From NCBI RefSeq assembly GCF_000829825.1, contig NZ_JXSL01000009.1, forward strand, positions 1-64,000: 64,000 nucleotides of DNA, written 5' to 3'. Below, in pieces: positions 1,399 through 18,352 of this stretch. Positions within the stretch are counted from its first letter, which is position 1, and each line of letters opens with the position of its first letter. Origin of the DNA: Paramagnetospirillum magnetotacticum MS-1. Its GTDB lineage: Bacteria > Pseudomonadota > Alphaproteobacteria > Rhodospirillales > Magnetospirillaceae. The notes under the pieces are model-generated. The model was not told the DNA's origin, did no database searches, and saw only the letters and a list, made by a program, of their open reading frames with translations. Position numbers and translations under genes: made by a program.

Positions 1399-1510
1399 TG
1401 AAGATGATTTGGTCATCAAGACTCAAAATGAAGCCAGATTAGATGTTTGATTTTGCCGTAAGGCATTTTAAAGCATTCAAAACATCGAAGACGTCATCAT
1501 AAGACGGCTT

Positions 1511-2116: not shown

Positions 2117-2124
2117 AAGCGCAG

Positions 2125-2266
2125 GATAGATGCATCAATCCATCGATGGCAATGCCAGACTCGTGTCGGGCGTCTGTGAACTTCCCACTTCTTCACCCTT
2201 TCTTCCCCGCCTGCGCATGAAACGGTGAAGTTATCTCGGTTGGAATGTGATGGATTGATGTATCAA
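2125..2266. promoter_or_regulatory. Promoter/operator segment of the 201-residue gene, bounded by palindromes
   Basis: About 140 bases conserved in three module copies (also 12184-12322 and 29293-29433). The ends carry GATGCATCAA (2129-2138) and TTGATGTATCAA (2255-2266). In between lie inverted GTGAA/TTCAC and CTTCACC/GGTGAAG pairs. The proximal palindrome falls in the spacer between the inferred -35 and -10, so autoregulation by a module protein is plausible. Bases 2267-2459 hold only the end of the module homology and no gene that I can see. Confidence 0.5.
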
Positions 2267-2459
2267 CCTGAACCACAACACCGCCCTTCCCAGCCAGGGC
2301 GTCGCCAGAGACGATCCGACCACCGGCAGCAAGGGTGACAGCAGATGATATCCAAACTGCATTGTCGTTCTGCCAGTAAAGATCATCGATTATAAATTCG
2401 ATATTCGGCTAACGGAAAAAGAACCGCAAGCAGATGGCATCAATACGATCAGATCGGTA

Positions 2460-2930
2460 TTATCCTACTGCTTCCATTGCCAGGAAAGCGAGAGGGCGAG
2501 GATCAACGGCGAAATCTCGAATCCACCGTTTATACTGCATGTCCTCATTGAGAATGTGATGAGTAAGCCATTGGATGACGAGGTTGGGAAGGTCGTCCGC
2601 CGCTGACTTGGTACCACTTTGATACGTTTCGGAAATTGCCCTCACCCTGGCTTGAAACTTGCGGTGTTTATGGTGATGTTCCGCCAGCTGCGAATAGCCG
2701 ACCGCCTTCAGCGCCTTTTCCTCGCGAAGGAAATGCCCATCTACATACTCTTCTAGGATCATGAGAGTGCTGGTGATGATCATTCCCTGGTCCTGCTTCG
2801 CTGAAAGCGAATCGTAAAGCAGCCGAGCAATGTCAAAAAATGCCTTGTGGTCGGAGTCCAGCGTGTCATTGCCCACTGACATTTCAGGGGTCCACTGGGG
2901 AATCGCTGCTGAAGCGGTATCGGTACCCAT
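2460..2930 (-). CDS. Bacteriohemerythrin
   Basis: 156 residues; di-iron O2-binding four-helix protein. All ligand blocks are present in order: DSDHKAFFDIARLL, HFLREEKAL, EHHHKHRKF and LTHHILNEDMQY. Family role is reversible O2 binding for storage, delivery or sensing; here it sits back to back with a PAS protein and chemoreceptor, so O2 sensing or buffering for taxis is a fair inference. Start chosen at the ATG of MGTDT, because the longer frame runs into the divergent promoter region. Confidence 0.88.
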   Translation of the reverse strand: MGTDTASAAIPQWTPEMSVGNDTLDSDHKAFFDIARLLYDSLSAKQDQGMIITSTLMILEEYVDGHFLREEKALKAVGYSQLAEHHHKHRKFQARVRAISETYQSGTKSAADDLPNLVIQWLTHHILNEDMQYKRWIRDFAVDPRPLAFLAMEAVG

Positions 2931-3070
2931 ACGCCCACACCTAACGTGGTTTCTTGACATGGGGCACCGCCGAGCCGTCAGGTTGTGGCAAACCATCCGT
3001 CCGTGATATGACCAATGTCAAGAAAGCAGCAAATGCCCTTAGAACGGGTTTGTCAAGGAAGGCTAACTGC

Positions 3071-3586
3071 ATGGCCAGCGGCATTAGCGGAAGTGAGCGC
3101 AGCTTCCGCGACAATGAGATCATCGTCAGCAAGACGGATCTTCAGGGGCGAATGACCTATTGTAATGACGTTTTTATTCGCATCTCAGGATACGCGGAAG
3201 CCGAGTTGATCGGAAAACCACATAACATGATCCGGCATCCGGCTATGCCCCGATGCGTGTTCAAGCTGCTATGGGACACCATCTCCCAGGGCAAGGAACT
3301 GTTCGCCTACGTGGTCAATCGCTGTAAGAACGGCGACTACTACTGGGTTTACGCTCATGTGACGGGCGATCTTGACGACAGCGGCAACATGGTCGGCTAC
3401 CACTCCAATCGTCGATCTCCAGATCGCAAAGCCATCGACGTCATTGAGCCGTTGTATGCCCGACTTCTGGAAGAAGAAGGGCGGCATGCCGACCGAAAGG
3501 CTGGGATCGAGGCGGCGACCAATCTGCTGCTGACCATTCTCGCTGAGAAGGGAGTGAGCTATGAGCAGTTTGTCTTCAGCCTCTAA
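3071..3586 (+). CDS. Stand-alone PAS-domain sensor protein (Aer-like PAS)
   Basis: 171 residues. One PAS domain of the Aer type with [40 protein letters not shown] and [12 protein letters not shown], the pattern of FAD-binding aerotaxis sensors, then a short helical tail. No membrane segment and no signalling domain. Start taken at the ATG after AAGGAAGG (about 8 bases upstream). The 3' end overlaps the chemoreceptor start by 26 bases, so the two are translationally coupled and probably work as one receptor. Confidence 0.85.
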
Positions 3587-5252
3587 GGCGCTGGCCGCAG
3601 TCGTCATCGCATTGGTGCTGATGGTGGTAGCGACGATCTGGGACATGTCAAGAGGAGCCTCAGGCATTACTGCCGTGGTGCTGGCGGCATCCGTGATATT
3701 GATGCTGGCAGCGATGTGGCTGCGGCGGACCAATGCCAGCCTGAGCAAAGGTGTTGCGGTTCTGAGCCAAGCCGCTGAAGGCCGTCTCAGGGTTCGGGTG
3801 TTAGGCATCCGTGGCCATGGCACGATCGGCGAGCTGCTTCGCAACATAAATCGCTTGTTGGATCAGACCGAGGCTTTCGCGAAGGAAGCGGATGCGGCAA
3901 TGCACGCCGCCGCCGAAGGCCGCTTTTACCGCAACATCGTCGGCAAGGGCTTGCGAGGAGAGTTCATTCGCTACTCTCAAGACGTGAATACTACGCTGGG
4001 AGTCATGGGCGAAAGCAATTCGAAGCTGGGAATGTTCACCAGCCGCATGCTCAAAGACGCAGTGTCAATCTCGATGACCATCAACGAAGGTGCCATTGCT
4101 AACGCCAGTATCATCACCGGCATTCACAGCGCCCGTGACGAGGCGCAGGGCATGGCTGCTGCAACCGAAGAATTGGTGTCCAGCATCCAGGAAATTAGCC
4201 ACCAAAGTGAAGGTGTTGCTGGGCTGTCCACTGAAGCCCACTCGGTTACCGAGGCTGGGCGGCAGGTCGTTTCGGAAGCCATGGTAGAATTCGCCACGAT
4301 TGAAGCCGTTGTTCGCGAAGCCGCCCATAAGGTTGCTGATTTGGCTAAGGCGTCAGAAGCCATTGGAGACATCCTGTCTTCCATTGAGGATATCGCGGCC
4401 CAGACCAACCTTCTCGCCTTGAACGCCACCATTGAGGCGGCCAGGGCTGGTGAAGCAGGAAAAGGCTTTGCTGTCGTAGCCAATGAGGTCAAGAACCTCG
4501 CCAATCAGACGGCACGGGCTACCCTCGACATTGGGGAGCGCATCAACACCCTTCGCCAGGAAATGGCAGGGATCGTCACCACGATGAGCCAAGGTACTGA
4601 AGCTATCGCCACTGGCAGGCATTCAATGGAGACCATGGATCGCCGTATGGGCGAGATCAGCGATCTCGTCAGCAATACGACGGAGCGTATGGCAGAGGTA
4701 TCGCACATCCTGTCACAGCAAGCCGCTGCCGCTAATGAAATCTCCAGTGGCATCCAAAAGGTGGCGTATTTGGGCCAGCAGAATGCGCAAGCCATCGAAA
4801 AAAGCACGAATGCCCTTTCAGGCGTTGAGGCAGAGATCGGCTCGCTGTTGACCCTGCTTAATGATCAAGAGATTCCCAACAAGATCATCACAATCGCCAA
4901 GGCTGATCACGTTATCTGGAAAAAGCGTCTGGTCGATATGGTCATCGGCAAGATCACGCTGAAGGCGGAAGAGCTTTCCAGCGAACAGACCTGCCGGCTT
5001 GGAAAATGGTATTTCGGCCCAGGTTCGATGCCGTTCCGACATCATCCCGCCTTCGTTGAATTAGAAGGCTGTCACCGAGATGTTCATCAGACCGGCATGT
5101 CCGTGGTAAAGGCATTCAATGGCGGAAATGCGGAAGAAGCCATCCGCCTCATAGGCGAGGTTGGGGGCGCTTCCGAACGCGTGATTGCGTGTCTCGACCG
5201 CTTGATCAACGAACCTGCCCGGATAAGCAGTGGGGTCACAGGAAGGTTCTGA
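3561..5252 (+). CDS. Methyl-accepting chemotaxis protein with C-terminal CZB domain
   Basis: 563 residues. Two membrane helices (about 10-27 and 36-53) with almost no periplasmic loop, HAMP-like linker, then the coiled-coil signalling domain with the conserved hairpin tip ([20 protein letters not shown] near residue 275). Residues about 449-550 are a zinc-binding CZB domain ([29 protein letters not shown]), known in other receptors to sense zinc or oxidants. Lacking its own ligand domain, it may take input from the overlapping PAS gene. Signals to CheA/CheW, which are not in this window. Confidence 0.92.
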
Positions 5253-5296
5253 AGCAGACCTCCGTTTTGATTCGACAGTTTCTAAGAGGGTCTCTG

Positions 5297-6061
5297 ATGG
5301 TTCCTCCTCATCTGCCAGCCACTTCCCGGCCCATGTATTCGGCTGAGCGCCAAATGCACGAGCGGAGAGCAAAGGCGAAGCCTGAGGCAACGCTCGATGC
5401 CTTGGTTGCAATGATCACCGACATGCGGGGAGAAATTTCATCGCTTCGCAGCAACGTTGCGGCCCTCAAGCAACCTAGCGTGGCGACCAATCCCCTCGTC
5501 GGGGAGCCTGTCACTGATAGCAGTGACGATGCGGCGGTGGTTCTTCTCAAGGCGGAATTACACGGCCTCGCGAAATGCATTGCAGAAACCAAGTTAGAGA
5601 TTGCCGCCATCCGGCCTTCAGGGCCTGCGGGTAGTGACGACCACATAACCATCGTTGCCAACGAATTGGATGCTGTGGTTGCCGCGACCGAGGACGCCAC
5701 CCAGTCCATTCTCGATTCGGTTGAGGCAGTGGATACCATGGCGCAGGAACTGCGATCCCACGTGTCCAACGCCTATGCAGGCGGTATCCTCAACGACATT
5801 TCGGAAAAGATGACGGCGATATTGGAAGCCTGCAATTTCCAAGACATCACGGGCCAGCGAATCACCAAGGTGGTCAATACCCTCAAATATGTCGAGCAGC
5901 GCGTTAACGCCATGATCGCCATCTGGGGTGAAGAGGCTGCCGCTAATGATACATCTTCGCCAAAGGAAGACCTTCGCGAAGGCGACGCTCGGCTTTTAAA
6001 CGGACCACAACTCGATGGCATCGGAATTAGTCAGAACGACATCGACGCGATGTTCGGCTAG
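5297..6061 (+). CDS. CheZ-like CheY-P phosphatase
   Basis: 254 residues. The long helical region carries the CheZ signature ACNFQDITGQRITKVVNTL, and the C-terminus ends ISQNDIDAMFG, the CheY-binding peptide of CheZ proteins. Expected role: dephosphorylates CheY-P. Start chosen at ATG after TAAGAGGG; an upstream start would overlap the receptor gene. It follows the receptor by 44 bases, so it is likely co-transcribed. CheZ-like genes are less usual in alphaproteobacteria, but the motif is clear. Confidence 0.85.
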   Translation: MVPPHLPATSRPMYSAERQMHERRAKAKPEATLDALVAMITDMRGEISSLRSNVAALKQPSVATNPLVGEPVTDSSDDAAVVLLKAELHGLAKCIAETKLEIAAIRPSGPAGSDDHITIVANELDAVVAATEDATQSILDSVEAVDTMAQELRSHVSNAYAGGILNDISEKMTAILEACNFQDITGQRITKVVNTLKYVEQRVNAMIAIWGEEAAANDTSSPKEDLREGDARLLNGPQLDGIGISQNDIDAMFG

Positions 6062-6158
6062 CCGCTGCTGCGAGGGCATAAATGGGTAGAATGTGGCACT
6101 TAGACTAATACCCCCCCCCAATCAGCATGAAGCTGTCCCTCAATTTGGCTGACCACAA

Positions 6159-7262
6159 ATGCTATCACCTACCAGACAAGTCGCCCTGATCGCCGTCATA
6201 GATGCCAATGCGGGCTTTCGAACCCAAGTTGCGCAAGTTCTGGTGTCGCTTTATCGGGTTAATGAATATCCGGATGCTGAGCGCGCGCTACATGGTTTGC
6301 GCGCTGCTCCGCCGGAATTGATTTTGGTGGACGAACAGATAGCGCCCAGAGGTGGTTGTGATTTGATCACCCAAGTGAGGCGCGAACCGGCGCTGGCTGC
6401 TATCCCTGTCGTGATTACCTCGAAGCGTGAACCATCTGTAATCTCCGAGACATTGCGTCAATGTGGGGCCGATGGCTACCTAGCCAAGCCGTTCCGGCGC
6501 AGTTCTCTGATCAATCTCGTCACTTCTATGATCAACAAGCAGGTGGAAGCCAACTGGGAGAACCTGCCGGTAAGGGCAAGGACAGCACTCAAGGGCACTG
6601 TAGAGGTCTTTAACAATATCTCCGATTTCATCGCAGCAGGTGAGCCGGTACCGTTCGAGTCTGTCAAGGACGCCTGCGGTCCGTTGATCGATGCCGTCGC
6701 TAACAACGACTTCAGGGGCATCCTGAGCGGTGTTCGTGAGCACGACAACTACTCCTACGCTCACTCTATGCGGGTGGCGACATTGTTGTCATTATTCGGT
6801 CATACCCTTGGCCTGCCACAGGCGGACCAATTGGTGCTGGCTAGCGGCGGCTTGCTGCATGATACAGGCAAGATCTCCATCCCGCATGAGGTGCTGAACA
6901 AGCCGGGACGCCTCACGGAAGAGGAGTTCTCGGTAATGAAATCCCACGTCACCGAGACTATTAAGTTTCTGGACCTCGCCCAAGACATTCCCAAGCCTGT
7001 GATCGTTATCGGTGCCCAGCATCATGAGAAGATTGACGGCACTGGCTATCCATTCGGTCTCAAGGGGGCCCAGCTTAATGATCTGGCTCGCATGGCATCT
7101 ATCGTTGATGTGTTCAGCGCGCTTACCGACCGCCGAGTCTATAAGCCGCCCATGGCGGCGGAGGTTGCTCTGGGCATCATGACTGATCAGATGTCACGCC
7201 ATCTAGACCAGAACTTTGTCACTCTGTTTAAGACCATGCTGCTTGATGCCGTGGTGGATTAG
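6159..7262 (+). CDS. Response regulator with HD-GYP domain (c-di-GMP phosphodiesterase)
   Basis: 367 residues. Receiver domain at about 8-125 (phosphoacceptor in LILVDEQ near residue 58), then an HD-GYP domain with HDTGK near 234 and the hallmark HHEKIDGTGYP near 288. Such proteins hydrolyse cyclic di-GMP and thereby favour motility. The ORF follows the CheZ-like gene by about 100 bases in the same direction. The usual metal-binding His/Asp residues appear present. No clear Shine-Dalgarno. Confidence 0.9.
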   Translation: MLSPTRQVALIAVIDANAGFRTQVAQVLVSLYRVNEYPDAERALHGLRAAPPELILVDEQIAPRGGCDLITQVRREPALAAIPVVITSKREPSVISETLRQCGADGYLAKPFRRSSLINLVTSMINKQVEANWENLPVRARTALKGTVEVFNNISDFIAAGEPVPFESVKDACGPLIDAVANNDFRGILSGVREHDNYSYAHSMRVATLLSLFGHTLGLPQADQLVLASGGLLHDTGKISIPHEVLNKPGRLTEEEFSVMKSHVTETIKFLDLAQDIPKPVIVIGAQHHEKIDGTGYPFGLKGAQLNDLARMASIVDVFSALTDRRVYKPPMAAEVALGIMTDQMSRHLDQNFVTLFKTMLLDAVVD

Positions 7263-7344
7263 ACTGGGACGGGTTTCGGAGGACGCCTCTACCACATCAT
7301 TTGAGCAATTGGCGATGACGTCCCCGCCACACCCCTGGCACATC

Positions 7345-7376
7345 GGCGCAACCGGCTCGATTCGAACCAGCAGCCG
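7345..7376 (-). pseudogene. tRNA-Arg 3'-half remnant, inverted
   Basis: On the minus strand this reads as the T-arm and 3' acceptor of tRNA-Arg (GGTTCGAATCGAGCCGGTTG), with one T-stem change. The flanking GATGTGCCAGGGGT resembles the sequence after the att remnant at 26972-27001. A similar inverted remnant precedes the intact tRNA at 19041. These are scars of integration and recombination at the tRNA locus. Otherwise 7263-7473 holds no gene. Confidence 0.6.
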
Positions 7377-7473
7377 ATGCCGGAGGAGGGCGTTGCTCCG
7401 ACCCGCAACTCCCCCCTTCCCACCGCTGCCGCCTTGCGCTATAACCCTCGCCTCTCGTTCACCCGAGACCCGC

Positions 7474-7512
<39 letters not shown>

Positions 7513-7709
7513 AGTAAAAGCCTAAGACATCGTCAGGAACAAGCCAATCATAAGCCTGGCTTAGCGCCGATGTGTTCCAAGCCATCCGCATTTTAGTCTC
7601 AAAGTGTGCCAGCGGCACGATCCAGGCACACCCACATGGACTTTTCCTTCACTTCCTGATCGCGGCGTCCAAGAATCAGTCATCGACAACCTCAACGATG
7701 GTGATGACG

Positions 7710-8702
7710 ATGGCGACGATCAGGAAACTCCGGGGTAGGTGGCAGGCGATGGTGCGGCGGAAGGGCACCGCGCCGAGGTCCAAATCCTTCGACAAGAAGA
7801 CCGATGCCGAGAAGTGGGCGCGTGATCTGGAAGCCGAGGTTGATCGGTGCGGGTTCCTTCCCGACACCAAGCTCGCCGAGGATACCACTCTCGCCGACAT
7901 CATGACCCGGTATCGCGAAGAGGTGACGCCCAGGAAGCGTGGTGCCAAGATCGAGGTGTTCCGGATCAATGCCATGCTGCGTCATGACATCATGCATCGG
8001 ACCTTGGCGCTTCTTTCCAGTTCTGACATTGCCGCCTATCGTGATGAGCGTCTCCAGTCCGTTGGTCCGGCGGCGGTGGTCAGGGAGATCGCCACCATCA
8101 GCCAAGCCATCGACACCGCCATGAAGGACTGGAACATCTATCTGGTTCGCAATCCCGCCAAGCTTGTTCGTCGCCCAAGCCTTCCCCGTGGTCGTGACCG
8201 CCGTCTGGAAGGTGATGAGGAGCAGCGGATTCTTGCTGCCTGCGACCGTGGTCGAATCCGTTGGCTCAAGCCCATGGTGGTGCTGGCGGTGGAAACCAGC
8301 ATGCGCCGTGGAGAGATGCTATCGCTCCGGTGGTCCGACATTGATCTTGATCGTCGGGTTGCCCACCTGTCCATGACCAAGAATGGATCGAGCCGCGACG
8401 TGCCGCTGTCAACCAGGGCGGTGGAGACGCTATCGGGGTTGATGCAACAACCTGATCGTGATCCAGAGAAGGTCTTTATGGTGTCCGAGAACGCCGTCCG
8501 TCTCGCATGGGATCGCCTGCGGAACCGCATCGGTCTGGAGAACATCAACTTCCATGACCTGCGTCATGAAGGCGTGTCTCGGTTGTTCGAGAAGGGGCTG
8601 GATGTGATGGAGGTGTCTGCCATCAGCGGTCACAAGACCCTGACCATGTTGAAGCGGTACACCCATCTGCGGGCCGAGGACTTGGCACTGCGGTTGGGTT
8701 GA
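7710..8702 (+). CDS. Tyrosine recombinase (site-specific integrase)
   Basis: 330 residues. N-terminal arm-binding segment (IRKLRGRWQAMVRRKG), SAM-like core-binding domain, C-terminal catalytic domain with SMRRGEMLSLRW (Arg I), HDLRHEGVSRLF (His-x-x-Arg), SGHKTLTMLKRYTHL (His and the nucleophile Tyr). Likely moves the module in and out of tRNA-Arg. Start taken at MATIRK; an in-frame ATG at 7698 and a longer frame from 7572 are possible. The stop lies inside the palindrome at 8697-8712. C-terminal fragments of sister genes are at 30494 and 32308. Confidence 0.93.
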   Translation: MATIRKLRGRWQAMVRRKGTAPRSKSFDKKTDAEKWARDLEAEVDRCGFLPDTKLAEDTTLADIMTRYREEVTPRKRGAKIEVFRINAMLRHDIMHRTLALLSSSDIAAYRDERLQSVGPAAVVREIATISQAIDTAMKDWNIYLVRNPAKLVRRPSLPRGRDRRLEGDEEQRILAACDRGRIRWLKPMVVLAVETSMRRGEMLSLRWSDIDLDRRVAHLSMTKNGSSRDVPLSTRAVETLSGLMQQPDRDPEKVFMVSENAVRLAWDRLRNRIGLENINFHDLRHEGVSRLFEKGLDVMEVSAISGHKTLTMLKRYTHLRAEDLALRLG

Positions 8703-8712
8703 TGCATCAACC
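8697..8712. promoter_or_regulatory. 16-bp palindrome holding two convergent stop codons
   Basis: GGTTGATGCATCAACC is a perfect palindrome. It supplies the TGA of the integrase on the plus strand (8700-8702) and the TGA of the 70-residue gene on the minus strand (8707-8709). An 18-bp version is at 30483-30500 in the same gene context. Its inner 12 bases recur near the 200-residue genes. It could be an operator, a recombination site, or both. Confidence 0.6.
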
Positions 8713-8919
8713 TGTCTGGATTAGAACCTCGTCGATCTTGGTGAACCCGCTGCCGACGCCCAACTGAGACGCGTGGACCGTCACCGAGCCATAACCATCG
8801 ATCTTGGTCAGCCGCACCATGGTTCCAGATTTCGGGACGTCGATGATGCTGTCCACCGACCAAACCGTCCGGCTCCGACCATCGCTCTGATAAAGGTCGC
8901 CAAGGGCAACAGCTTTCAT
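8707..8919 (-). CDS. Module protein, 70 residues, function unknown
   Basis: No family recognised. A small beta-rich protein (VWSVDSIIDVPKSGTMVRL, YGSVTVHASQLGVG) that could be an SH3-like fold. Good Shine-Dalgarno (AAGGGAGTGGGTC before ATG). Convergent with the integrase and sharing its terminal palindrome. The last 28 codons are preserved at 30404-30489 beside the second integrase fragment. An excisionase or integrase-modulating role would fit the position, but nothing in the sequence shows it. Confidence 0.7.
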   Translation of the reverse strand: MKAVALGDLYQSDGRSRTVWSVDSIIDVPKSGTMVRLTKIDGYGSVTVHASQLGVGSGFTKIDEVLIQTG

Positions 8920-9199
8920 GACCCACTCCCTTCCCTTGGGGCCGCTTCATTGCACACTGAGGGCGGTGTGATCAAGTGACGGATTGAAACTAAAGTTATA
9001 GGGCCGGACTGGGCAACGCCGCCTATCGCTCACACTCGTGCTGCTATAGCTGGGGCAGATCGAAGTCCTAGAAAATCCAGCACTTGCTGGCCCGGATGGC
9101 GGCTGATCCGCGACCATTTTCAGCACATCCTTGTAGAGCGGCTTGACTCTGGGTCGGAATCGAGTCATCAAATGCACGTGCATTGCAAACGGAGATCGC
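8920..9199. other. Non-coding stretch with a segment shared with 32155-32235
   Basis: No convincing gene. Bases about 9059-9118 (CGAAGTCCTAGAAAAT, then GGCGGCTGATCCG) match the reverse complement of 32155-32213, which lies just past the third integrase fragment. This shows the 32 kb copy descends from the same module. Confidence 0.55.
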
Positions 9200-9676
9200 A
9201 TGGCACGCCGCCCACATCAAAGCGGACTTACCATTGACGCCGTGCGCGCCAGACAGCTTCGCCTGATGGCGGAACGTGAAGGTGTCACCGTGTCCGATTG
9301 GCTGGACCAGATCATCGTTCGGGAGTGGTCTGATACCGGCTGTTTTGGTCTTCCTGGTTTCAAGGTCATACGCGCCATAGGGCCGGACAATGAAACGCCA
9401 GTCGTAATGGTCAGCATCGACCGACCTGACAACCAGGCTGTTCGGCTCCAGTTAGCCATGCAAGACGCCGACACACTATCCATCGCGATGGGGCAGGGCT
9501 GCGCAGGGGACGCAAGAACCATCACGGGTGATGACATCACCTACCGACGCAAAGGAAACGGCTTCGTCCTGAGCCTGATCACCAGCATCGAAACCATCAA
9601 ACACCCATTTCATCCGTCAGTGGCGCGTGATCTTGCGCGTCAGATCGCTGATACCATCACGCCGAAGAAGGTTTGA
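9200..9676 (+). CDS. Ribbon-helix-helix-like module protein
   Basis: 158 residues. Residues about 8-40 (GLTIDAVRARQLRLMAEREG, then VTVSDWLDQIIVREW) look like a MetJ/Arc-type ribbon-helix-helix DNA-binding segment; the remainder is not recognised. ATG after GGAGATCGC; the upstream extension from 9143 is unlikely. Overlaps the next gene by 4 bases (ATGA), so the pair is translationally coupled. It is a candidate for the regulator that binds the module palindromes. Confidence 0.65.
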   Translation: MARRPHQSGLTIDAVRARQLRLMAEREGVTVSDWLDQIIVREWSDTGCFGLPGFKVIRAIGPDNETPVVMVSIDRPDNQAVRLQLAMQDADTLSIAMGQGCAGDARTITGDDITYRRKGNGFVLSLITSIETIKHPFHPSVARDLARQIADTITPKKV

Positions 9677-10533
9677 CCATGTTTGACGATCCAATCCCTC
9701 TGACCGAAAGCCATTCAATCAGCTCGCCGTCCAAGCCACTGACGAAGAAGCCATCGACCTACGTTCTACCAGAACCAAAAGCCGCAGACCTTTCAAAGCG
9801 CCCAACAGACATGATCCTCGACGGCATGCGTCGTATAGCGAATGACATGGACTGTAACCGCCATGATCGTGCAGTATTCGATGGTCTCCGCGGTAAGTAT
9901 TTTGCACTGGCAATGGAGCTAAATTCACGCCGAGAGATCGCGCCAATATACCGACCCCGGATAAAAGTTGTCCACCCGAAGTCTCCGGAATGGTCAGAAA
10001 TAGATGGGCATTTCGCGATTGATCTTCAGGTGCTTGATCTGGATTGGCTTGGAAACCAGAACTTTTCCTCGGATCGCTGCTCTAAAAACGTGCAGCCGAT
10101 CTTTGCTGACGGATTCGACTTAGAGAAGGCGGCCGACTTCGCAACTGCGGAATGGGGATTCGATAAGAAGATCACCGCACTCGGCCTGGAGCTAGATGAA
10201 GTTTGGGACCTTGCCATGCTGCGCCCTGCCAAGGTGCGTTCAGCACTGGTCGAGTGGCGAAAGGAAGCCAAGCGTTTCGGGCAATGGCTGGGTAGGCATC
10301 GAACACCTCAGATCCAGAAGCAGGCGGCCGAGTGGGAGCAGCTTTGGTTGGCTCGCAAGGTCGCCGCCATGCGCTATACCGGATTGACCGTCGCTGACGA
10401 CATCAAGGTCAGTCCGACCGATATCGCCAGAGAGTTCATGAAAATGACGGGGCAGCGGCTTGATCCTGACACAGTTTCCAGGCGTATTGTTCGTCTCCTG
10501 AAAGCCAAGAAGGACATGCCGCGGAAAGCCTGA
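9673..10533 (+). CDS. Module protein, 286 residues, function unknown
   Basis: No family recognised with confidence. Hydrophilic, with a charged N-terminal third, a central aromatic/acidic part (DGHFAIDLQVLDLDWLG) and a helical C-terminus ending in a possible helix-turn-helix (VSPTDIAREFMKMTGQRLDP, DTVSRRIVRLLKAKK). The terminal DNA-binding-like segment and coupling to a ribbon-helix-helix protein suggest a DNA transaction such as replication or partition, but this is inference. Confidence 0.6.
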   Translation: MTMFDDPIPLTESHSISSPSKPLTKKPSTYVLPEPKAADLSKRPTDMILDGMRRIANDMDCNRHDRAVFDGLRGKYFALAMELNSRREIAPIYRPRIKVVHPKSPEWSEIDGHFAIDLQVLDLDWLGNQNFSSDRCSKNVQPIFADGFDLEKAADFATAEWGFDKKITALGLELDEVWDLAMLRPAKVRSALVEWRKEAKRFGQWLGRHRTPQIQKQAAEWEQLWLARKVAAMRYTGLTVADDIKVSPTDIAREFMKMTGQRLDPDTVSRRIVRLLKAKKDMPRKA

Positions 10534-10680
10534 ATGCCGCATGGCAAACCGCTGGGTTGACCGCACGATGACCCGCACGGCAAACCGCACGGTACTATTG
10601 ATCAAAGCATTGAAATTTCAGGCTTATTACGCCGCAGCTGTCGCCGTAGTATATTGTAGTATCTGTAGTGCATTGTAGCG
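10534..10680. repeat. Short direct repeats ahead of the module hairpin
   Basis: Two clusters: CCGCACG-type repeats at about 10560-10591 (GACCGCACGATGACCCGCAC) and TGTAG-type repeats at about 10645-10680 (GTAGTAT, TTGTAGTAT, CTGTAGTGC, TTGTAGCG). Spacing near 9-10 bases could allow protein binding on one DNA face. Candidate operator or small origin; no experimental basis. Confidence 0.4.
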
Positions 10681-11159
10681 TTACGTATCCTACGGAGTGT
10701 AGCTTTTCAATGATTACGGCGCCATGCTGCCACCGGCTTCGCCGGTGTTGCGGCGCCGTTGAGTTCTGTTTCATTTTTATCTTTGCTCGCGGTGTTGAGA
10801 TCTATGCGGTGTGGATTGGGAATGCTTTCAAGATTGTGATGGCAGATGCCGCGGTACGCGCAGCGCGCTTCGCGCTCTTCGCTCTCGCGGTGTGTCAAAG
10901 ACCAGCATCAGCGATGGCGGGTGTCACGTCGGGAAACCCAAAACCTTCCGTTCCGGTCTTCATGACCATACCCGTTCAGCGGATTGCGCGCCAAACCTCA
11001 CCAGAGAGTCACTGGCTGGCGTTTGATGGGTGTCTGCTACCAGTGTAGCGGCGGACATGAAGATGACTCCTAATCGCATTAAAACGGCTTGCGCAGAATC
11101 CCGCATTGAGGAGCCCTGTATGGGGCTGGTGACGTTCACGATGACGGCGGCGGTCTGAG

Positions 11160-11297
11160 GTGGGCTTTGGTTCGATAGTCGGCCACGGAAAGGATGATGA
11201 GGTCGTCAACGGGATCGATATCGACCTATTGCCAGATGATAGGGAGAAATTGAGCCTCATCTATCGCAAACTGGTTTTGAAAACCACTCTTGTATGA
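11160..11297 (+). CDS. Small conserved module ORF, 45 residues
   Basis: Counterpart of 1246-1398. GTG start in GAGGTGGGC. The encoded peptide keeps GHGKDDEVVNGIDIDLLPDD and stops five codons earlier owing to a TGA. Convergent with the 203-residue gene. Function unknown. Confidence 0.38.
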   Translation: MGFGSIVGHGKDDEVVNGIDIDLLPDDREKLSLIYRKLVLKTTLV

Positions 11298-11559
11298 ACA
11301 ATGCTCTGTTGATGAAGATGTTTTGGTCATCAAGGCTAAAATTGATGCCCTAATAGGGTTTTGATTTTGCTAGAAAGCCATTTAAAGCAATCAAACCACC
11401 CACGATGTCATCTTAAAGCGGCATTTTACGCTGTCAAAGGGCTCACTGATCGATGGGCGATGCCTTGAATTCACTTTAACGCAAATTCAGCGTCTATTAG
11501 ATCAAGATTTTTCTGATTTATTGTGTTGAAATTCAATGATCGGAAGTGATGTCTAATTA

Positions 11560-12171
11560 TCATTCGTGAAGCGCCAACCAGCCCTCAAGTGCGGCGATAA
11601 GTGTAGCTTTGACTCTGGTGCCACGCGCAAAGGCGTTGCCGAGGCTGGCATTCAATGGCTTGAAGCCAAGCTCAAGCATCAGCGGACCAGGCTTCCAATG
11701 TCCTGGTTCACCATGCCCCATCCGCTTCATGACGGTTTGAAGACGCGCCTTGCCGCTTGCTGTTAACTTTCGGTCAGTGCCAGCGATTGGTGCGCCAGGA
11801 CGTGGAGCTGCGATTGGTGACGGTGCTATCGGCGGCTTTGGCGTAACAGATGGGGCGGTTGGAGCCGCTGGTGGGGTAGGTGGCGGCGATGTCGATGATG
11901 ATGGAGCGCCAATTGCACGAGACGGTGACAGCGGCGCTGCAACCGTGATGCCTGCAAATGCCAGAAACTCGTCTCGCTCGACGGCATCAGCTTTGCGCCA
12001 CTCACGTTTCAGCGCATCGAGGCGGTTGGGTAGATGTATCAACCCGGCAGCGGCACATGCGGCACGAACGCTCGTATGCTTCCCTGCGATCAGGTCGGCA
12101 TAGAAGGTAGGCTTTTCGCGTTCTAGGCGACCACGCCAATATGCTGCATTACGTTTCTTGGGCTTGGCCAT
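11560..12171 (-). CDS. Module protein, 203 residues, diverged paralog of the 201-residue protein
   Basis: The N-terminal 65 residues are nearly the same as in copy 1 (KKRNAAYWRGRLEREKPTFY). The linker is Pro/Ala-rich (about 82-130), and the C-terminal domain differs (KARLQTVMKRMGHGEPGHWK) while keeping the ending LEGWLALHE. A conserved N-terminus with a variable linker and C-terminus suggests a fixed DNA-binding part and a variable partner-binding part. Promoter layout as for copy 1 (-10 TATTCT next to the start). Confidence 0.72.
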   Translation of the reverse strand: MAKPKKRNAAYWRGRLEREKPTFYADLIAGKHTSVRAACAAAGLIHLPNRLDALKREWRKADAVERDEFLAFAGITVAAPLSPSRAIGAPSSSTSPPPTPPAAPTAPSVTPKPPIAPSPIAAPRPGAPIAGTDRKLTASGKARLQTVMKRMGHGEPGHWKPGPLMLELGFKPLNASLGNAFARGTRVKATLIAALEGWLALHE

Positions 12172-12183
12172 GAGCGCAGAATA

Positions 12184-12322
12184 GATGCATCAACCCATCA
12201 ATGGCAAGGCCAGACTGGAGCGGGGGCGTCTGTGAACTTCCCACTTCTTCACCCTTTCTTCCCCGCCTGCGCATGAAACGGTGAAGTTATCTCGGTCGGA
12301 ATACGATGGATTGATGCATCAA
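12184..12322. promoter_or_regulatory. Palindrome-bounded promoter segment (M2)
   Basis: GATGCATCAACC at 12184-12195 and the perfect TTGATGCATCAA at 12311-12322 flank about 115 bases closely similar to those at 2139-2254. The proximal palindrome lies about 20 bases from the start codon of the 203-residue gene. Confidence 0.5.
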
Positions 12323-12773
12323 CCCGCCCACACTACCTCCATTCCCATCCTGGACGTCGCCAGAGACGATCCGATCACCGGCAGCAGCGGTGGCAGCAGA
12401 TGATATCCAAAACCTGCCACGGGTCTCGGGAGTGGGATGGCGCATCTCATGTGGTGTCGCATGGGACGCGGCAAAATTTAAACTGAACGGCGGTTGTCGG
12501 AGGTAGGGCGGTCATCCACCGCGCCGGGGCCAACCGGCTCTACCTGACCCAACCCGGTCGTTGACGTCCACTACAGCTGCCTATCGCAGGTGCAAACTTT
12601 CGTATGTAAATGTTCTGTCTCTTCTTGTAACCTCGCCACGATCTAGAACGACTCCAACAGGGTATTCTTCGTATGTCGCGCTGGATGCCTCAAGCATCGT
12701 TCGCCTTGGCATTTCTATGCTCTTGGTATAGTTTTGGGTGGCCATAGTATGGCTATGGCGTGGGGGCTGTCAG

Positions 12774-12848
12774 CCCAAGGACAAGTGGGCCGCCGCTTTC
12801 GAGGAGGCCGCCGCCAAGGTCACTCATTACTATCGCAAGACCGACTAA
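12774..12848 (+). pseudogene. Possible 3' remnant of a displaced gene
   Basis: An open frame of 24 codons ending PKDKWAAAFEEAAAKVTHYY then RKTD-stop has strong codon-like composition and reads like a genuine C-terminus, but no start or upstream coding part is present. The rest of 12476-12917 shows no gene. It may mark the far edge of the module insertion. Confidence 0.3.
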
Positions 12849-12917
12849 CCGGTCTGGAGGACTCATTCCTTGCGGCGTCAGCGGCCTCAGCCCCCTTTAC
12901 AAGGGAATCGGTGAAAT

Positions 12918-13619
12918 ATGGAGCCAAACAGCCCCTCTCCCCTGCGCAGTGCTTCATCCGGCGGCCTGACCCTCATAGGATTTGTCCTGTTTCTGGTGGG
13001 AGGTGCCTGGGCCATCAGCCTATATGGCAAGCTGGGCACTCATCCGTCGGACGACATGTACACGATGGTGTTCATGATCATCTTCGCCTTGCCAATGACA
13101 CTGGTTGGCTTCTTGATGGCCTGGGCCGGGCAAGCGCTGGCGGGGCCTAGCGGGGCGATCCCTATGAAACGGGTCATGATCGGGGTCATGGCCTTGGCGG
13201 TGCTGTACGTTCTATGGGACCAGCACATGCAGCAAAGCGAACGGGATGCGGCTTGGCTTTCCTACGAACAGGAGATCAAGCGGTTAACAGAGATGGCGCA
13301 ACAGGGCGACGGTGACGCCCAATGCCGTCTTGGCCATCAACAGAGGTCAATCGAATGGTTCGCCAAGGCAGCGCTGCAAGGCAAACCCTGCGCCACTGAA
13401 TTGCAGAGAATTTATGAGGAACGGGGAACCGACGCCAATCTTGACTGGGCGACGAAGTATCGCTGGTACCTGATCTCTCAAATGGCGGGTAACAGCAAAT
13501 TAGAGAAGGACGTGCATTGGCTGAAAACCGAGATGGTTTCCCCTGCAGTGGCCGCCGAGGAAGAAGCTCGAGCGCGAGAATGGTGTGCCCAGCCCGGCTA
13601 TTGTCTCCCCCCGAAATAA
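12918..13619 (+). CDS. Membrane protein with Sel1-like region
   Basis: 233 residues. Three hydrophobic helices (about 15-35, 48-72, 88-102), then a hydrophilic helical part containing a single Sel1-like repeat pattern (AQQGDGDAQCRLG, SIEWFAKAALQGKPCATEL). Sel1-type repeats mediate protein contacts at membranes. Followed closely by two paralogous membrane proteins in the same direction; probably an operon. Function unknown. Confidence 0.65.
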   Translation: MEPNSPSPLRSASSGGLTLIGFVLFLVGGAWAISLYGKLGTHPSDDMYTMVFMIIFALPMTLVGFLMAWAGQALAGPSGAIPMKRVMIGVMALAVLYVLWDQHMQQSERDAAWLSYEQEIKRLTEMAQQGDGDAQCRLGHQQRSIEWFAKAALQGKPCATELQRIYEERGTDANLDWATKYRWYLISQMAGNSKLEKDVHWLKTEMVSPAVAAEEEARAREWCAQPGYCLPPK

Positions 13620-13635
13620 GCGCCTGAGTGGGCAA

Positions 13636-14136
13636 ATGAACTACGAACTGGTCTTCGACATCCATAACGCGGATAGGGGCGTCTACACGCTGGCCATCAC
13701 CTTCGCAGCTATCGCCAGCCTGGCCCTGGTCCTACGGAGCGGTATACGCATCTGCGTGAAGAAGAACGTCGCGGAGTGGCGGGCAATCCTCCTCGCCGTC
13801 ACCTCGGGGGGAGTGGTGGCGGCCCTGGCCGCCGCCTTCATCAGCTACACCGACCGCCAGGAAACGCTGGCCCTGATTGAGGCGTTCGAGGCCGGGCAAG
13901 CCAAGGTCTCGGAAGGCCCCATTGCCAATCTCTCCTTGCCCTTCCGGCCGGCCAACGGGCGGACGGGTTGGATGAGCGGCAACTTCGAGGTTGCCGGAAC
14001 CCGGGTCCGATACGGTCACCTTTCGCCCATCGACTTGGCAGGTATTGCAGAGGGACAGAAAGTGCGGGTCACGAGTATAGATGTAGACATTGTGCGGCTG
14101 GAGCGTCTGACTGAATTCGGCCACTCCGGCCAATAG
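13636..14136 (+). CDS. Two-helix membrane protein, function unknown (paralog 1)
   Basis: 166 residues from the ATG at 13636. Membrane helices near 17-33 and 50-70, then a soluble domain with EAFEAGQAKVSEGPI, WMSGNFEVAGTRVRYG and EGQKVRVTSIDVDIVRLE. The soluble part resembles the product of 14253-14759 over its whole length (EGxxxx, WxSGxF, VRxxxIDxDIVRxE), so the two arose by duplication. It looks like a small beta-barrel or OB-type domain; no name can be given. Confidence 0.65.
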   Translation: MNYELVFDIHNADRGVYTLAITFAAIASLALVLRSGIRICVKKNVAEWRAILLAVTSGGVVAALAAAFISYTDRQETLALIEAFEAGQAKVSEGPIANLSLPFRPANGRTGWMSGNFEVAGTRVRYGHLSPIDLAGIAEGQKVRVTSIDVDIVRLERLTEFGHSGQ

Positions 14137-14252
14137 CCCCGGCAGAAGCACCACAGTCAGCGGCAGCGTAACAACCGACCATCCCTCCTTGGCACTGACC
14201 ACCTCTCTTCGACTTTTGGCCTATCATCCCGCATTATCGTCTAAAATTTAAA

Positions 14253-14759
14253 GTGATGTCTCGGGAGGCTCTTGTGTATGCGGTGGTATATGATTTGCGC
14301 ACAGCCCAGGTTGGCGTATTCGACGCGCCGATCGGCTTTTCGCTTCTGGCGGCTATGTTATTGGTTGCATGGGGTGTGTTATGGCCACTCAGGGCGAGGA
14401 TCCACGAAAACATCTGTAAGTCTCTTCCACCGGTGGCGCTTGGGTTCTGCTTATGGGCTGCTGGTTTAGCTGTGCTGAGATATTTTGAGCGTGCCGAAGC
14501 ACTGGCTCTGGCCGATGCCTATGACGCTGGCAAGGGAACTGTACTCGAAGGGGTGGTCTCCAAGATTGATGCCCCGCGAGAAACGCGCGTAGGCAATGCA
14601 AGGGACTGGGTTTCCGGATCATTCAGGCTTGATGGCCGCCTCGTCCTCTACCCGCATGGCATGAATATCGAAGCTGCGATCATCGATGGGGATCGTGTCC
14701 GGGTCCACTTTATTGACGATGTGATTGTAAGATTTGAGAAATCAATAAATACCGACTAG
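14253..14759 (+). CDS. Two-helix membrane protein, function unknown (paralog 2)
   Basis: 168 residues, same plan as 13636-14136: two membrane helices (about 27-45 and 58-75) and a C-terminal domain with AYDAGKGTVLEGVV, WVSGSFRLDGRLVLYP and DRVRVHFIDDVIVRFE. Base composition is slightly more AT-rich than paralog 1, so the duplication is not recent. The 3' end overlaps the convergent YihY gene by 4 bases. Confidence 0.62.
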   Translation: MMSREALVYAVVYDLRTAQVGVFDAPIGFSLLAAMLLVAWGVLWPLRARIHENICKSLPPVALGFCLWAAGLAVLRYFERAEALALADAYDAGKGTVLEGVVSKIDAPRETRVGNARDWVSGSFRLDGRLVLYPHGMNIEAAIIDGDRVRVHFIDDVIVRFEKSINTD

Positions 14760-15580
14760 TCAATTCGATTAGCAATCTCTCCTGCGCTCAACTCAGCAGC
14801 CAAGGTCGCCGAGAGTATTATAATTACCCACAACACGAGCAGCCACATCTGTAGAAGCGGAATTATGGCCATGGCGCCATAGATCAGGTTCGGCAGGACG
14901 GGCAGCGAGATGTATTTGATGAAGGCGAATTGCGCCAAAGAATAAACTGTACATCCGACGACTGATCCGACCAGGCAGGCGGTAACCGATGTTCCCCTGG
15001 GTGAGCATATGACGAGAATCAGGAAGAAGGCCCCGAAGGCAATTCCGTAGGATTGCCATGATGCCGATATGGCTCCGAGATCGACGCCGTATCTCTCCAG
15101 GATCATGGCGGCGCCCCACCCCACCCCGGCGATTGCGATCGGCCCCGAAGTCAAGAAAGCGATCAGTTCGAAGATCCTTTCCGCAACCGACGATCGCGGG
15201 AAAGACCCGAAAATCCGGCTGAATGTCGAACGGATCTCAAACATCAGAAATGCACTGGAACTCATCAGGGAACATATCCCGATGATCGACAGGGAGCTTG
15301 CATTGGCGATGAATTCATCGATGTGAGACTCCAGAACGCCCCCAATCCCCGGAAGGAATGTTCTGATTATCAAGCCCTTGAGATGGGATGCGTATGCGAT
15401 GAATTCGGGGAAACTGGAAAAAATCACGAGACTGACCGCCGCTACCGGCACCATTGAAAGCATACTGGCAAAGGCCAGTGAACTGGCCCTCACCAGGACT
15501 TCATCCGTCGAGAATCGCCGGATCGACCGGCTGAGGGCGGTAGGCAAATTTCTGACAGTATCGCTCAAGACGTTTTTCAT
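14756..15580 (-). CDS. YihY/BrkB-family inner membrane protein
   Basis: 274 residues with six hydrophobic helices and the family pattern (RASSLAFASMLSMVPVAAVS near the N-terminus, IIPLLQMWLLVLWVIIILSA near the C-terminus). The family was once called RNase BN in error; its role is uncharacterised, possibly transport or envelope function. Somewhat shorter than usual. Transcribed against its neighbours. Confidence 0.8.
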   Translation of the reverse strand: MKNVLSDTVRNLPTALSRSIRRFSTDEVLVRASSLAFASMLSMVPVAAVSLVIFSSFPEFIAYASHLKGLIIRTFLPGIGGVLESHIDEFIANASSLSIIGICSLMSSSAFLMFEIRSTFSRIFGSFPRSSVAERIFELIAFLTSGPIAIAGVGWGAAMILERYGVDLGAISASWQSYGIAFGAFFLILVICSPRGTSVTACLVGSVVGCTVYSLAQFAFIKYISLPVLPNLIYGAMAIIPLLQMWLLVLWVIIILSATLAAELSAGEIANRID

Positions 15581-15776
15581 GGCGCGGCCATCCGGCTATC
15601 CCGAGGCGATAACTTATACGCGAGTACGGTAACGCAAGCATCTTTCCCGTCATCCCGTCCCTATTCGATCAAGCCCAATTGACTCTCCGATAAGCATCAT
15701 GTTCCATCAAATTTCTGATCGTCCTTATGGGATATGGACGATTTGGTGGGTTTGGGCCTTGGCTTCGGGGGGAGCT

Positions 15777-17195
15777 ATGAACGCAGTGCCGAAATGGCTG
15801 TTGCCGGGGGTTGTCTTGGCGGCCTTGGCGCTTTTGCTTGTCAGCGGGCTTGAGAAAGAGCAGCGCGCCGAGGGCGGGGCAGAGGGTGCCCTGATAAAGG
15901 ACAGGTGGCGCCTTCGCATGACCAGCGCCCAAGTGGCCAATGAAGTCTCCGCCTATGGCTATGTCCAGCGGCTTCGGGAATACCATTCCCGCGGCGCTCT
16001 CGACAGCGATGCCTATATGACCGAGTTGGTCGGCTCGGTAGCCGAACCGCTGATCGTCGCCGCCAAGGATCTGTACCCACAGACCACCGATTGGAACTGG
16101 GAATGGCATTTGGCCGATACCGGCGAAATCAACGCGTATTGCATGCCCGGCGGCCGGATCATTGTGCTGTCGGGCTTGCTGTCGGATCAGGTGCTGGGCG
16201 ACGACCGCGACATGCTTGCCACCATCCTGGCGCATGAAGTCTCCCACGCCATCTTGCAACACACCCGTGAATCCATGGGGCGCGGCTGGCTGGCCCAGGG
16301 GCTGGCCTGGACCATGGCCAAGAGTCTCAAAATCGGTGCGCTGCGCGAGCAGGAGATGGTCAAGGATTTGAAGTTGGCGTTCCTCGACCCGAAAAGTCGT
16401 ATCCTTGAGGCCGAGGCCGATGTGCTTGGCCTGGAACTGATGTCCCGCGCCGGATTTGATTCGGCCAAGGCGGTCGCCACTTGGGAGCATATGGCGGAGG
16501 GCACGCACTCCAACGTCCAGGACGTTATGACTCAGCGCGCCATGGCTTTCCTGTCGGATCATCCTTCCGACCGGGACCGGCTGGCCCGTATGAAGGCATT
16601 GCAGCCCAAGGCGGCACCGCTGGCAGCCAAGGGAAAACATTGGGACTGGGCGGTCCAGGGCATATCGGACCAGCAGGCCGATATCCTGGACAAGGTCGCG
16701 GGCGCCTTCGGTCTGGGGGCAAGCCGATTTTCCATTACCGAACGCCAAGAGATTGCCAAACGGGTGGCCCAGGTCGAGGGCATTCATCCTCGGCAGGCCG
16801 CAGAGGAACTGGACAAGGCCCTGTGGGAAACCGGCCTGTCCCAGGGCGGCGCCATCCAGATGGGACTGACGGCCATGGTTCGCGGCGTCGGCGGATGGGA
16901 AAGGCTGGAACGCATCTGCGCGGCCTGGGCCAAGTCGAACCCGTCGCACGCCCTGTACCAGGATCCTGCCCAGGCCACCCGACTCAATCTTTCCGACACT
17001 GATCGCAGCCTGGCCTTGAGCGGTATGAAGCGGGTGGAAGCCTACCTGAATTCTGACAGGTTTATTGTGCGGCTGTGGCGCGACGTAGCCAGCGAGATCG
17101 GCAAGACCCGGCCCAAGGCCGCCGAAGCCATCCGGGATTGGCTCCAGTCCGGCATGGGCAATCCGGCGTCCAACGGCGGGAGGGCCGGACAATGA
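15777..17195 (+). CDS. M48-family zinc metalloprotease, membrane-anchored
   Basis: 472 residues. One N-terminal membrane helix (WLLPGVVLAALALLLVSGL), then the peptidase domain with the HExxH site HEVSH (about residue 153) and the downstream glutamate in EAEADVLGLEL (third zinc ligand). The C-terminal third is helical and may act as a substrate or partner platform. Related proteins (BepA/YcaL-like) work on envelope protein quality control. Start chosen after GGGGGAG; a longer frame from 15699 exists. Stop overlaps the next start (ATGA). Confidence 0.85.
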   Translation: MNAVPKWLLPGVVLAALALLLVSGLEKEQRAEGGAEGALIKDRWRLRMTSAQVANEVSAYGYVQRLREYHSRGALDSDAYMTELVGSVAEPLIVAAKDLYPQTTDWNWEWHLADTGEINAYCMPGGRIIVLSGLLSDQVLGDDRDMLATILAHEVSHAILQHTRESMGRGWLAQGLAWTMAKSLKIGALREQEMVKDLKLAFLDPKSRILEAEADVLGLELMSRAGFDSAKAVATWEHMAEGTHSNVQDVMTQRAMAFLSDHPSDRDRLARMKALQPKAAPLAAKGKHWDWAVQGISDQQADILDKVAGAFGLGASRFSITERQEIAKRVAQVEGIHPRQAAEELDKALWETGLSQGGAIQMGLTAMVRGVGGWERLERICAAWAKSNPSHALYQDPAQATRLNLSDTDRSLALSGMKRVEAYLNSDRFIVRLWRDVASEIGKTRPKAAEAIRDWLQSGMGNPASNGGRAGQ

Positions 17196-18265
17196 CAGGA
17201 ATTGCCATACCGATTTCCGCCAGCAGCGTTTGGTTCCAACAAGCCTGGACCTTGTGGCGCCGCAATCCGATGTTCTTCATCGGCGCCGCCCTCCTGATCC
17301 TGGCGCTTCGCTGGAGCCTCGACCTTGTCCAACTGGGCGGAGCATCCGCCGCCTTCATCTTCTTGTCCTATCTGACCGACGCCTTGGTCTTCGCCGTCAT
17401 TTGGACGGCTGTGACCCAGACGGATGGAGAGGCCGGGCTCCTTGACGGCTGGCGTCTTCTGGCTGGCCGACGCCTCAAGGTGATCAAGGCGGGGATATGG
17501 GGCCTGCCCAGCGCGGCGGTCAGCTATCTGCTCCTGTCCCTGGGTGCCACCCTGTTCCAGGCGGTCAGCGTGGCGCTCGGCGCCCGCATCGGCGGCTGGT
17601 TGATGCTGGGGTGGATTTTCATGGTGGGCTGGCTGTGCTGCGCCTTGCTGTTCGTCGCCCTGTTCGCCTGCATCGAAACCGCCAGGGGCGAGGACGGGCT
17701 TTGGAAGGCTGGCATCAAGGGGATGAGGGGAGCCTATCTGGGATGGCGTCCTTTGCTGGCGATCTGGACTGCGTTCGTCTGCGCCGCCACCCTATGCGCG
17801 GCGCTGGGAGCGGGCGTTCTGGGGCATATCAGCATGACTACGCTCGACGATGCGGGGCGTGAGGTGCTGGCATATTGGATCAACTGGCCTGCCCTATTCC
17901 TGGCGGTGATGGCGCTGCTGGCCCTGCTGGTGCCAATCGGAACCGATGTTCTCGTCAGTGACAGGAGCAACGCGGGGGGCGAGACCGAGTTGGCCGCATT
18001 CGGCGAGGCGGTGGCCGTGCGGCTGGGGCAAGGGCTAAAGGCGCTGGCGGCAGCGGTGATCCTGAGCGGATTGTTGGTCATCAATGTGGGAATTGCCTCC
18101 AGCCTGACAGCAGCACTGGCGCTCTGGCTGACCGGGCGAGCGCTGGCGGCGTCGGCTCCGGCCTGGGGCAAAGCCGAGGCTGGACCATGGGCTCGCTGGA
18201 AATGGCTCGTGTTCCCTGGACTACCGCTGCTGCTGCTTTGGCTTGGGGCGACCCAGATTTCGTGA
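17192..18265 (+). CDS. Polytopic membrane protein, function unknown
   Basis: 357 residues with about eight or nine hydrophobic segments and few charged loops (e.g. GWLMLGWIFMVGWLCCALLF, LFLAVMALLALLVPIG). No family recognised; the pattern is like DUF975/YciC-type integral membrane proteins. Translationally coupled to the M48 protease by a 4-base overlap, so it is likely a partner in the same envelope process. The frame upstream to 17075 is a shadow of the protease gene. Confidence 0.72.
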   Translation: MTGIAIPISASSVWFQQAWTLWRRNPMFFIGAALLILALRWSLDLVQLGGASAAFIFLSYLTDALVFAVIWTAVTQTDGEAGLLDGWRLLAGRRLKVIKAGIWGLPSAAVSYLLLSLGATLFQAVSVALGARIGGWLMLGWIFMVGWLCCALLFVALFACIETARGEDGLWKAGIKGMRGAYLGWRPLLAIWTAFVCAATLCAALGAGVLGHISMTTLDDAGREVLAYWINWPALFLAVMALLALLVPIGTDVLVSDRSNAGGETELAAFGEAVAVRLGQGLKALAAAVILSGLLVINVGIASSLTAALALWLTGRALAASAPAWGKAEAGPWARWKWLVFPGLPLLLLWLGATQIS

Positions 18266-18352
18266 CGGAGAAGCGCGTGAAACATACCGTGAGGAGACTA
18301 TAGCCGTGACCGTCAACCCGGCCTATGCGGGCCTTGTGGCGCAGGTGCGCGG

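Follow-up and report, generated by a model that had tools for sequence, protein, structure and literature searches.

What brought a set of genes of no named family, led by an integrase gene, into more than one place in a single bacterial genome? The question is raised by the first 64,000 nucleotides of contig NZ_JXSL01000009.1 of Paramagnetospirillum magnetotacticum MS-1 (assembly GCF_000829825.1), the whole stretch analyzed here and called the window throughout. An initial annotation of its letters had described, at 7513-12475, an integrase gene, a palindrome, a convergent 70-residue gene, a ribbon-helix-helix (RHH)-like gene, a 286-residue gene, a GC-rich hairpin, a small open reading frame (ORF), a 200-residue gene and a palindromic promoter segment, and had proposed that this module was a new type of small integrative element. 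All of the listed elements were located (Table 1), and their order is real and far beyond chance. The best explanation, to which we give a probability of about 0.64, is that the module is the recombination end of islands inserted serially at tRNA-Arg(CCG), of the kind that carries a 5' tRNA fragment, and that two of these islands, A and then B, stand in tandem. Labels beginning with G, C and L are our own for genomes, contigs and loci; coordinates with no label are those of the window.

The ends of island B

The tRNA-Arg(CCG) gene is intact to the right of the module, and its 5' half (19041-19079) recurs to the left at 7474-7512 with 39 of 39 nucleotides identical; past the anticodon loop CTCCGAA, the left copy switches to AGTAAAAGCC. 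The repetition exceeds the tRNA half in length, 7326-7512 and 18893-19079 being 88% identical over 188 aligned columns. Because both the 5' half and this longer repeat recur at the two ends, with the intact tRNA at 19041-19117, island B is most simply the interval 7513-19079, which is 11.6 kb long. BLAST listed no other full-length match of at least 90% to the tRNA gene in the assembly, and Rfam at its gathering thresholds returned two tRNAs and nothing further. Just 5' of the tRNA-Arg promoter, an inverted stretch resembling a tRNA 3' half was seen at 7342-7391 (minus) and 18895-18970; similar inverted stretches occur in several genus genomes (L074, L075, L076, L080, L081, L082), and their anticodon loop often resembles that of Arg CCT.

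The junction CTCCGAA/AGTAAAAGCC is identical in A, in B and in contig CAJANN010000094.1 (L154) of a metagenome-assembled genome (MAG) of an uncultured Rhodospirillaceae, which has the same tRNA half and an integrase 94% identical to that of the module. The MAG was the sole match in a scan that detects close relatives only, and a DNA search of it found no module part besides the integrase end, after which the contig ends. Its flank (murA-cimA-trmJ, by eye) was considered as the native flank and dropped, the sole trmJ match in the present genome sitting on another contig.

Under serial insertion, a tyrosine integrase would insert islands at the anticodon loop (CTCCGAA) of tRNA-Arg(CCG), from a circular form that carries a tRNA promoter and 5' half next to the integrase gene (int). 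Recombination would leave the old promoter and 5' half at the left, reading into int; at the right, the promoter and 5' half brought in by the island would be joined to the 3' half already in place, keeping the tRNA intact. Repeated insertion would give A, then B, in tandem and with unlike cargo. The right repeat would travel with the island, and the displaced tRNA promoter may drive int. This reading rests on the presence of the 5' half and its upstream flank at both ends, the left junction common to A, B and the MAG, and the intact tRNA; support for it comes also from left-over 5' halves in other genomes of the genus, from A and B sharing the module and not the cargo, from module genes that are still open, and from the fixed spacing of a palindrome, all described below.

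The initial annotation is supported in so far as it saw an integrase-driven element, here at a tRNA gene. Its further proposal, a free-standing element of 5 kb (about 7513-12564) with unrelated cargo beyond it, agrees with the observation that homology between copies and loci ends near 12411-12564. At 12564, however, BLAST recognized no clear tRNA half or core repeat, the 82-bp stretch at that end is a dispersed repeat of the genus, and the sole matching attachment (att) repeat to the right ends at 19079. The att-like repeats recognized bound 7513-19079 only, the cargo of A and B differs after the shared module, the polarity has been catalogued before, and a separate 5 kb element is decidedly improbable.

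Table 1. Features of the module, the islands and their surroundings (window coordinates)
Feature	Coordinates	Strand	Remarks
Copy A, right part	761-2385	+	201-aa gene at 1511-2116, minus
Island A cargo	2460-7262	+	hemerythrin, PAS, methyl-accepting chemotaxis protein (MCP)-CZB, CheZ and receiver-HD genes
Promoter region of displaced tRNA-Arg 5' half	7326-7473	+	repeat against 18893-19079
Displaced 5' half of tRNA-Arg(CCG), left att repeat	7474-7512	+	last bases CTCCGAA (anticodon loop)
Island B left end and integrase leader	7513-7697	+	carries palindrome TAAGCCTGGCTTA at 7551-7563
Tyrosine integrase, 334 aa	7698-8702	+	Pfam PF00589 (Phage_integrase), 5e-33; phrog_1
Palindrome TTGATGCATCAA, 1 mismatch	8439-8450		within int
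Palindrome TTGATGCATCAA, exact	8699-8710		across int stop codon
70-aa small protein	8707-8919	-	convergent to int; no Pfam or PHROG family
Perfect palindrome AATGCACGTGCATT, candidate operator	9171-9184		upstream of RHH-like gene; 12-bp core also in copy A
RHH-like protein, 158 aa	9200-9676	+	RHH by eye only
284-aa protein	9679-10533	+	286 aa if TTG at 9673 is used; 2 copies in genome
Weak small ORF	10668-11048
GC-rich hairpin	10716-10759	+	stretch with no clear gene
203-aa protein	11560-12171	-	family unnamed; 55% identical to 201-aa protein of copy A
Palindrome TTGATGCATCAA, 1 mismatch	12182-12193		upstream of 203-aa gene
Palindrome TTGATGCATCAA, exact	12311-12322		upstream of 203-aa gene
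Imperfect 82-bp genus palindrome, dispersed	12483-12564	+	last shared module sequence
Island B cargo	12565-18892	+	BrkB-family protein, M48 peptidase, proteins with no family
Right att repeat	18893-19079	+	takes in the inverted half-like stretch as well as the promoter and 5' half of the intact tRNA; presumably supplied by the island
Intact tRNA-Arg(CCG)	19041-19117	+	ARAGORN, Rfam
Copy C, inverted	29158-30836	-	int truncated; no RHH-like or 284-aa gene
Related decayed module fragments	32150-33305	-	short pieces, 71-97%, same order

Copies A and C

The right part of copy A, at 761-2385, had been annotated as a partial copy (758-2385), but it does not stand alone. Its left part lies on contig C5 (147-3422) and is 97.6% identical to copy B over 3276 bp, and in the right part 761-1534 and 1901-2356 match 10675-11449 and 11956-12411 at 89-90%. 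The break is marked by an insertion sequence (IS) end, GGTAATCCCCCC, on either side and by a 4-bp duplication, GTAG: on C5 the copy runs as far as GCATTGTAG and there meets an IS end, the first bases of the window belong to an IS whose end precedes GTAGCGTTACG (761), and the uninterrupted copy B reads GCATTGTAGCGTTACG at the corresponding point. The simplest reading of these sequences is one copy A split by an IS, with its cargo reaching to about 7325 and island B coming next; C5 would then adjoin the start of the window, and A would adjoin B. Between the two copies the integrases are identical at 329/334 residues, the RHH-like proteins at 157/158 and the 284-aa proteins at 278/284, with all three genes open in both, and the 201/203-aa pair is only 55% identical.

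Copy C matches the module, inverted, in three pieces (29171-29659, 30026-30404 and 30402-30836, at 94, 85 and 97%), lacks everything from about 8794 to about 11071 of the B coordinates, and on its right side is nearer to copy A (95.6%). Since the identity of A and B is 97.6% in the left part but 89-90% in the right part, with the 201/203-aa pair at 55% and the right side of C nearer to A, the left and right parts of the module have separate histories. The partial copies are indeed repeats in the same order, as the initial annotation held; these figures, and the absence of the RHH-like and 284-aa genes from copy C, lend no support to its statement that the unit evolves as one, and its bounds, 7513-12475, give way to a homology that runs from 7326/7406 to about 12564.

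The IS copies, the inverted deletion copy and the mosaic divergence (97.6% left, 89-90% right) would also suit a tandem that grew out of a single old insertion through homologous duplication and rearrangements mediated by IS copies, in place of repeated site-specific integration. To this we give a slim chance, as the cargo of A is unrelated to that of B and the same left junction was found in a MAG.

Several observations weigh against serial insertion itself. The order on C5 implies an inversion, so the present flanks may not be the original ones. The flank upstream of the left half of A diverges from the flanks of B and of the intact tRNA beyond about 107 bp. In the intact tRNA, the 3' half differs in type from the displaced half at C5:7516-7553, and because of this difference another element has probably acted at this tRNA. 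The right end of the island in the MAG is unseen, its contig stopping just after int, and the identity of the 5' halves could be plain conservation.

The same difference in 3' halves bears on another model, that of tRNA-dependent integration, in which the shared core is short, the split tRNA is left unrepaired, and the tRNA-Arg(CCG) at 19041 is a complete gene carried by the element; a displaced 3' half beyond it, for example at 26972-27004, would then mark the true right end. Such systems exist in phages, the 3' half at 26972-27004 is correctly oriented, and the T-arm of the intact tRNA, GCTGG/CCAGC, is unlike that of the displaced C5 half, GTAGG/CCTAC. We consider the model unlikely: 19118-26971 contains a tyrosine integrase distinct from that of the module, together with a phage-type protease, so that the half at 26972, in which the core is unrecognizable, fits a 3'-type element of its own, and the repeat 18893-19079 ends at the same point as the left repeat.

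The site in other genomes of the genus

The segment 7406-12564, used as a query, was matched in part by all 17 genus genomes, this one included, often through the tRNA end or a dispersed repeat. The tRNA region was read in 15 of the 17 (G140 and G110 were left out), and left-over 5' halves with no 3' half were present in seven: G000 (two), G094, G190, G249, G185, G209 and G248 (decayed). Two types of junction follow these halves, AGTAA in G000, G185 and the MAG, and GGCTCCCGCC in G094, G190 and G249. The half, an int fragment and the intact tRNA all lie inside 7.3 kb in G094.

A related integrase (136/337 aligned columns, 40%) occurs in G158 with the usual 3' polarity: it starts about 60 bp past the intact tRNA, and the displaced 3' fragment, 48 bp long, is found 24 kb further along. 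The interval, G158:C120:151158-175690 (24 kb), resembles a conventional 3'-type island at the same tRNA. Like the islands here, it has the same tRNA and core and a related integrase (40%); unlike them, it has its integrase after the intact tRNA and a 3' half as the displaced one.

Twelve intact tRNA-Arg(CCG) genes were compared, with the diverged genes of G170 and G180 dropped. The 5' half is identical in 11 of them, and the 3' half is of seven types that differ mainly at paired T-stem positions. The displaced 3' half of G158, GTAGG/CCTAC, and the one now present, ATAGG/CCTAT, differ at two paired T-stem positions, and for that reason the 3' half of G158 seems to have been exchanged. A wider view is possible, in which the tRNA-Arg(CCG) of this genome would be a mosaic of mobile-element parts, with related integrases using one anticodon-loop core in both polarities: 5'-type islands would deliver a promoter and 5' half, 3'-type islands a 3' half, and the left-over tRNA promoter would drive each int under a private 12-bp operator. 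We advance it tentatively, with the odds against it. If true, both polarities of tRNA integration would be found at one site in one genus, with a direct trace of half exchange; there would be a testable case of an integrase run from a tRNA promoter that has been displaced, and a handful of unnamed proteins would be tied to a private operator-like site. A general benefit of coupling to tRNA promoters was suggested earlier (PMC2951348).

Palindromes and module genes

The palindrome TTGATGCATCAA was found, at no more than one mismatch, at 15 sites in the genome (one for the reversed control). Twelve of these are accounted for by four each in copies A, B and C, at a constant spacing of 260 and 128-129 bp; of the remaining three, one belongs to a C31 module fragment and the others are elsewhere. 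Exact copies number five in this genome, all within modules, and zero in the other 16 genus genomes. These 12-bp palindromes may be operators, and as a guess their ligand could be the 203-aa protein. The RHH-like gene, whose stop codon abuts the start of the 284-aa gene, probably forms an operon with it on account of that arrangement, and its product may repress the operon from the palindrome at 9171. The hairpin at 10716-10759 has a predicted energy of -31 kcal/mol (z -2.95), with 2 of 200 shuffles as good.

That none of the non-integrase genes belongs to a nameable family was borne out by profile and sequence searches. The 70-, 158-, 203- and 286-aa proteins gave nothing convincing in Pfam, PHROGs, NCBIfam, PADLOC or PDB sequences, a few matches at E 0.04-0.9 having been set aside; for the RHH-like protein in particular, Pfam and PDB gave no match and NCBIfam no meaningful one. 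The 286- and 203-aa proteins were unmatched in plasmid and phage collections, and the 284-aa, RHH-like and integrase proteins in viral contigs, where the 203-aa protein had a 21-residue match (L155). The AlphaFold models of the 286- and 203-aa proteins, with a mean predicted local distance difference test (pLDDT) of 38 and 45, were unusable.

Relatives elsewhere are sparse. The search for co-occurrence with an integrase yielded single weak relatives only of the 286-aa and RHH-like genes. The former, in 1 of 247 other genomes (35% over 91 residues), does adjoin an integrase gene, and its neighbors, by eye, are type I restriction-modification genes; the latter, from G071 (28% identity), the only one of the order's 119 other genomes to have it, lies 1.6 kb from a terminase gene. 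The 203-aa protein has weak relatives in 5 of 119 genomes, the best at 47% over 73 residues and several of the rest with stops. For the 70-aa protein, 3 of 119 other genomes gave a match, and in G091 its relative is convergent to a different integrase. DNA of the 70-aa gene was also matched at eight places in six sister genomes of the genus (long matches only), and on C28 and C36 here; no match to the present integrase was listed beside it, and none was seen at the four of the eight places that were read (L089-L092, 7-9 kb each). For this gene, then, life apart from the integrase is largely the rule, which tells against the integrative unit as first proposed.

Comparison with known systems

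Of the 3919 islands in Islander, 159 have a 5' fragment, and 125 tandem arrays with at least two members are recorded there (PMC4383910); the 5'-fragment polarity is therefore already known, and the type is uncommon. As in those islands, a tyrosine integrase gene (7698-8702) lies between the intact tDNA and an upstream 5' fragment of the same orientation (7474-7512 and 19041-19117, both +), the interval of 11.6 kb (7513-19079) falls within 2-200 kb, the site is centered on the anticodon, and the islands are read as a tandem array. The differences from Islander islands are module genes of unnamed families, an element-specific palindrome of 12 bp that recurs at four fixed positions, and a 107-188 bp repeat reaching into the region upstream of the tRNA (PMC4383910). 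The tRNA-dependent lysogeny of actinobacteriophages likewise uses a short core in a host tRNA gene and preserves tRNA function, but in that system the host tRNA stays unrepaired and a separate tRNA gene of the phage takes its place (PMC10865867).

No relaxase or conjugation Pfam, as expected of an integrative and conjugative or mobilizable element, was present among seven module ORFs (five of copy B, one of copy A and the small ORF) or six cargo ORFs of island B. PHROGs, run on the seven module ORFs, gave only the integrase above chance and no packaging or structural gene of a phage or phage satellite, and the integron integrase profile scored 32.9 bits against a cut-off of 265. The present islands are set apart by their genes, by the palindrome, and by the occurrence of both polarities at a single tRNA within the genus. 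Beyond Islander and tRNA-dependent lysogeny, none of the titles listed in literature searches concerned this genus at tRNA-Arg(CCG), which is no proof of absence from print.

Dispersed repeats, cargo and the right-hand neighbor

The 82-bp palindrome occurs at 27 places in 10 of the 17 genus genomes (E <= 0.01), and at some loci it lies near the 70-aa gene or signalling genes. An integron reading of it was dropped, since it is a dispersed genus repeat and the integrase is of another class. A second repeat, of 70-84 bp, lies upstream of the RHH-like gene (9049-9142), at 32150-32219 and at L018 9568-9651, and on C31 it adjoins a tRNA-Glu gene and an apparent serine recombinase gene.

Cargo beyond the shared module differs between A and B. 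Of the six ORFs of island B that were scanned, one encodes a BrkB-family protein and another an M48 peptidase; a third gave a sub-threshold DUF4131 match, and the remaining three have no family. Chemotaxis-like signalling genes lie near tRNA-Arg(CCG) in other genomes too, and a 2.2-kb stretch is common to L074 (G094) and L076 (G213), at 94%.

To the right of the intact tRNA, 19118-26971 holds an XkdF-type phage protease gene (20930-21691) and the second tyrosine integrase gene (24193-25308, minus), which together look like the remnant of a phage-like element; with the 3' tRNA half at 26972-27004, in which no core is recognizable, the segment 19118-27004 has the appearance of a 3'-type element that entered this same tRNA. 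A displaced 3' half of the GTAGG/CCTAC type, with a full core, lies at C5:7507-7554, and its orientation relative to copy A would require an inversion. On the same contig, 14139-15548 has an 81% match in G216, where the matching sequence lies 0.4-1.8 kb downstream of the tRNA. The downstream flank of the tRNA in G185 matches the window at 57-63.6 kb (57169-63603) in shuffled order, which points to large rearrangements of the locus, so that flanks differ even between relatives.

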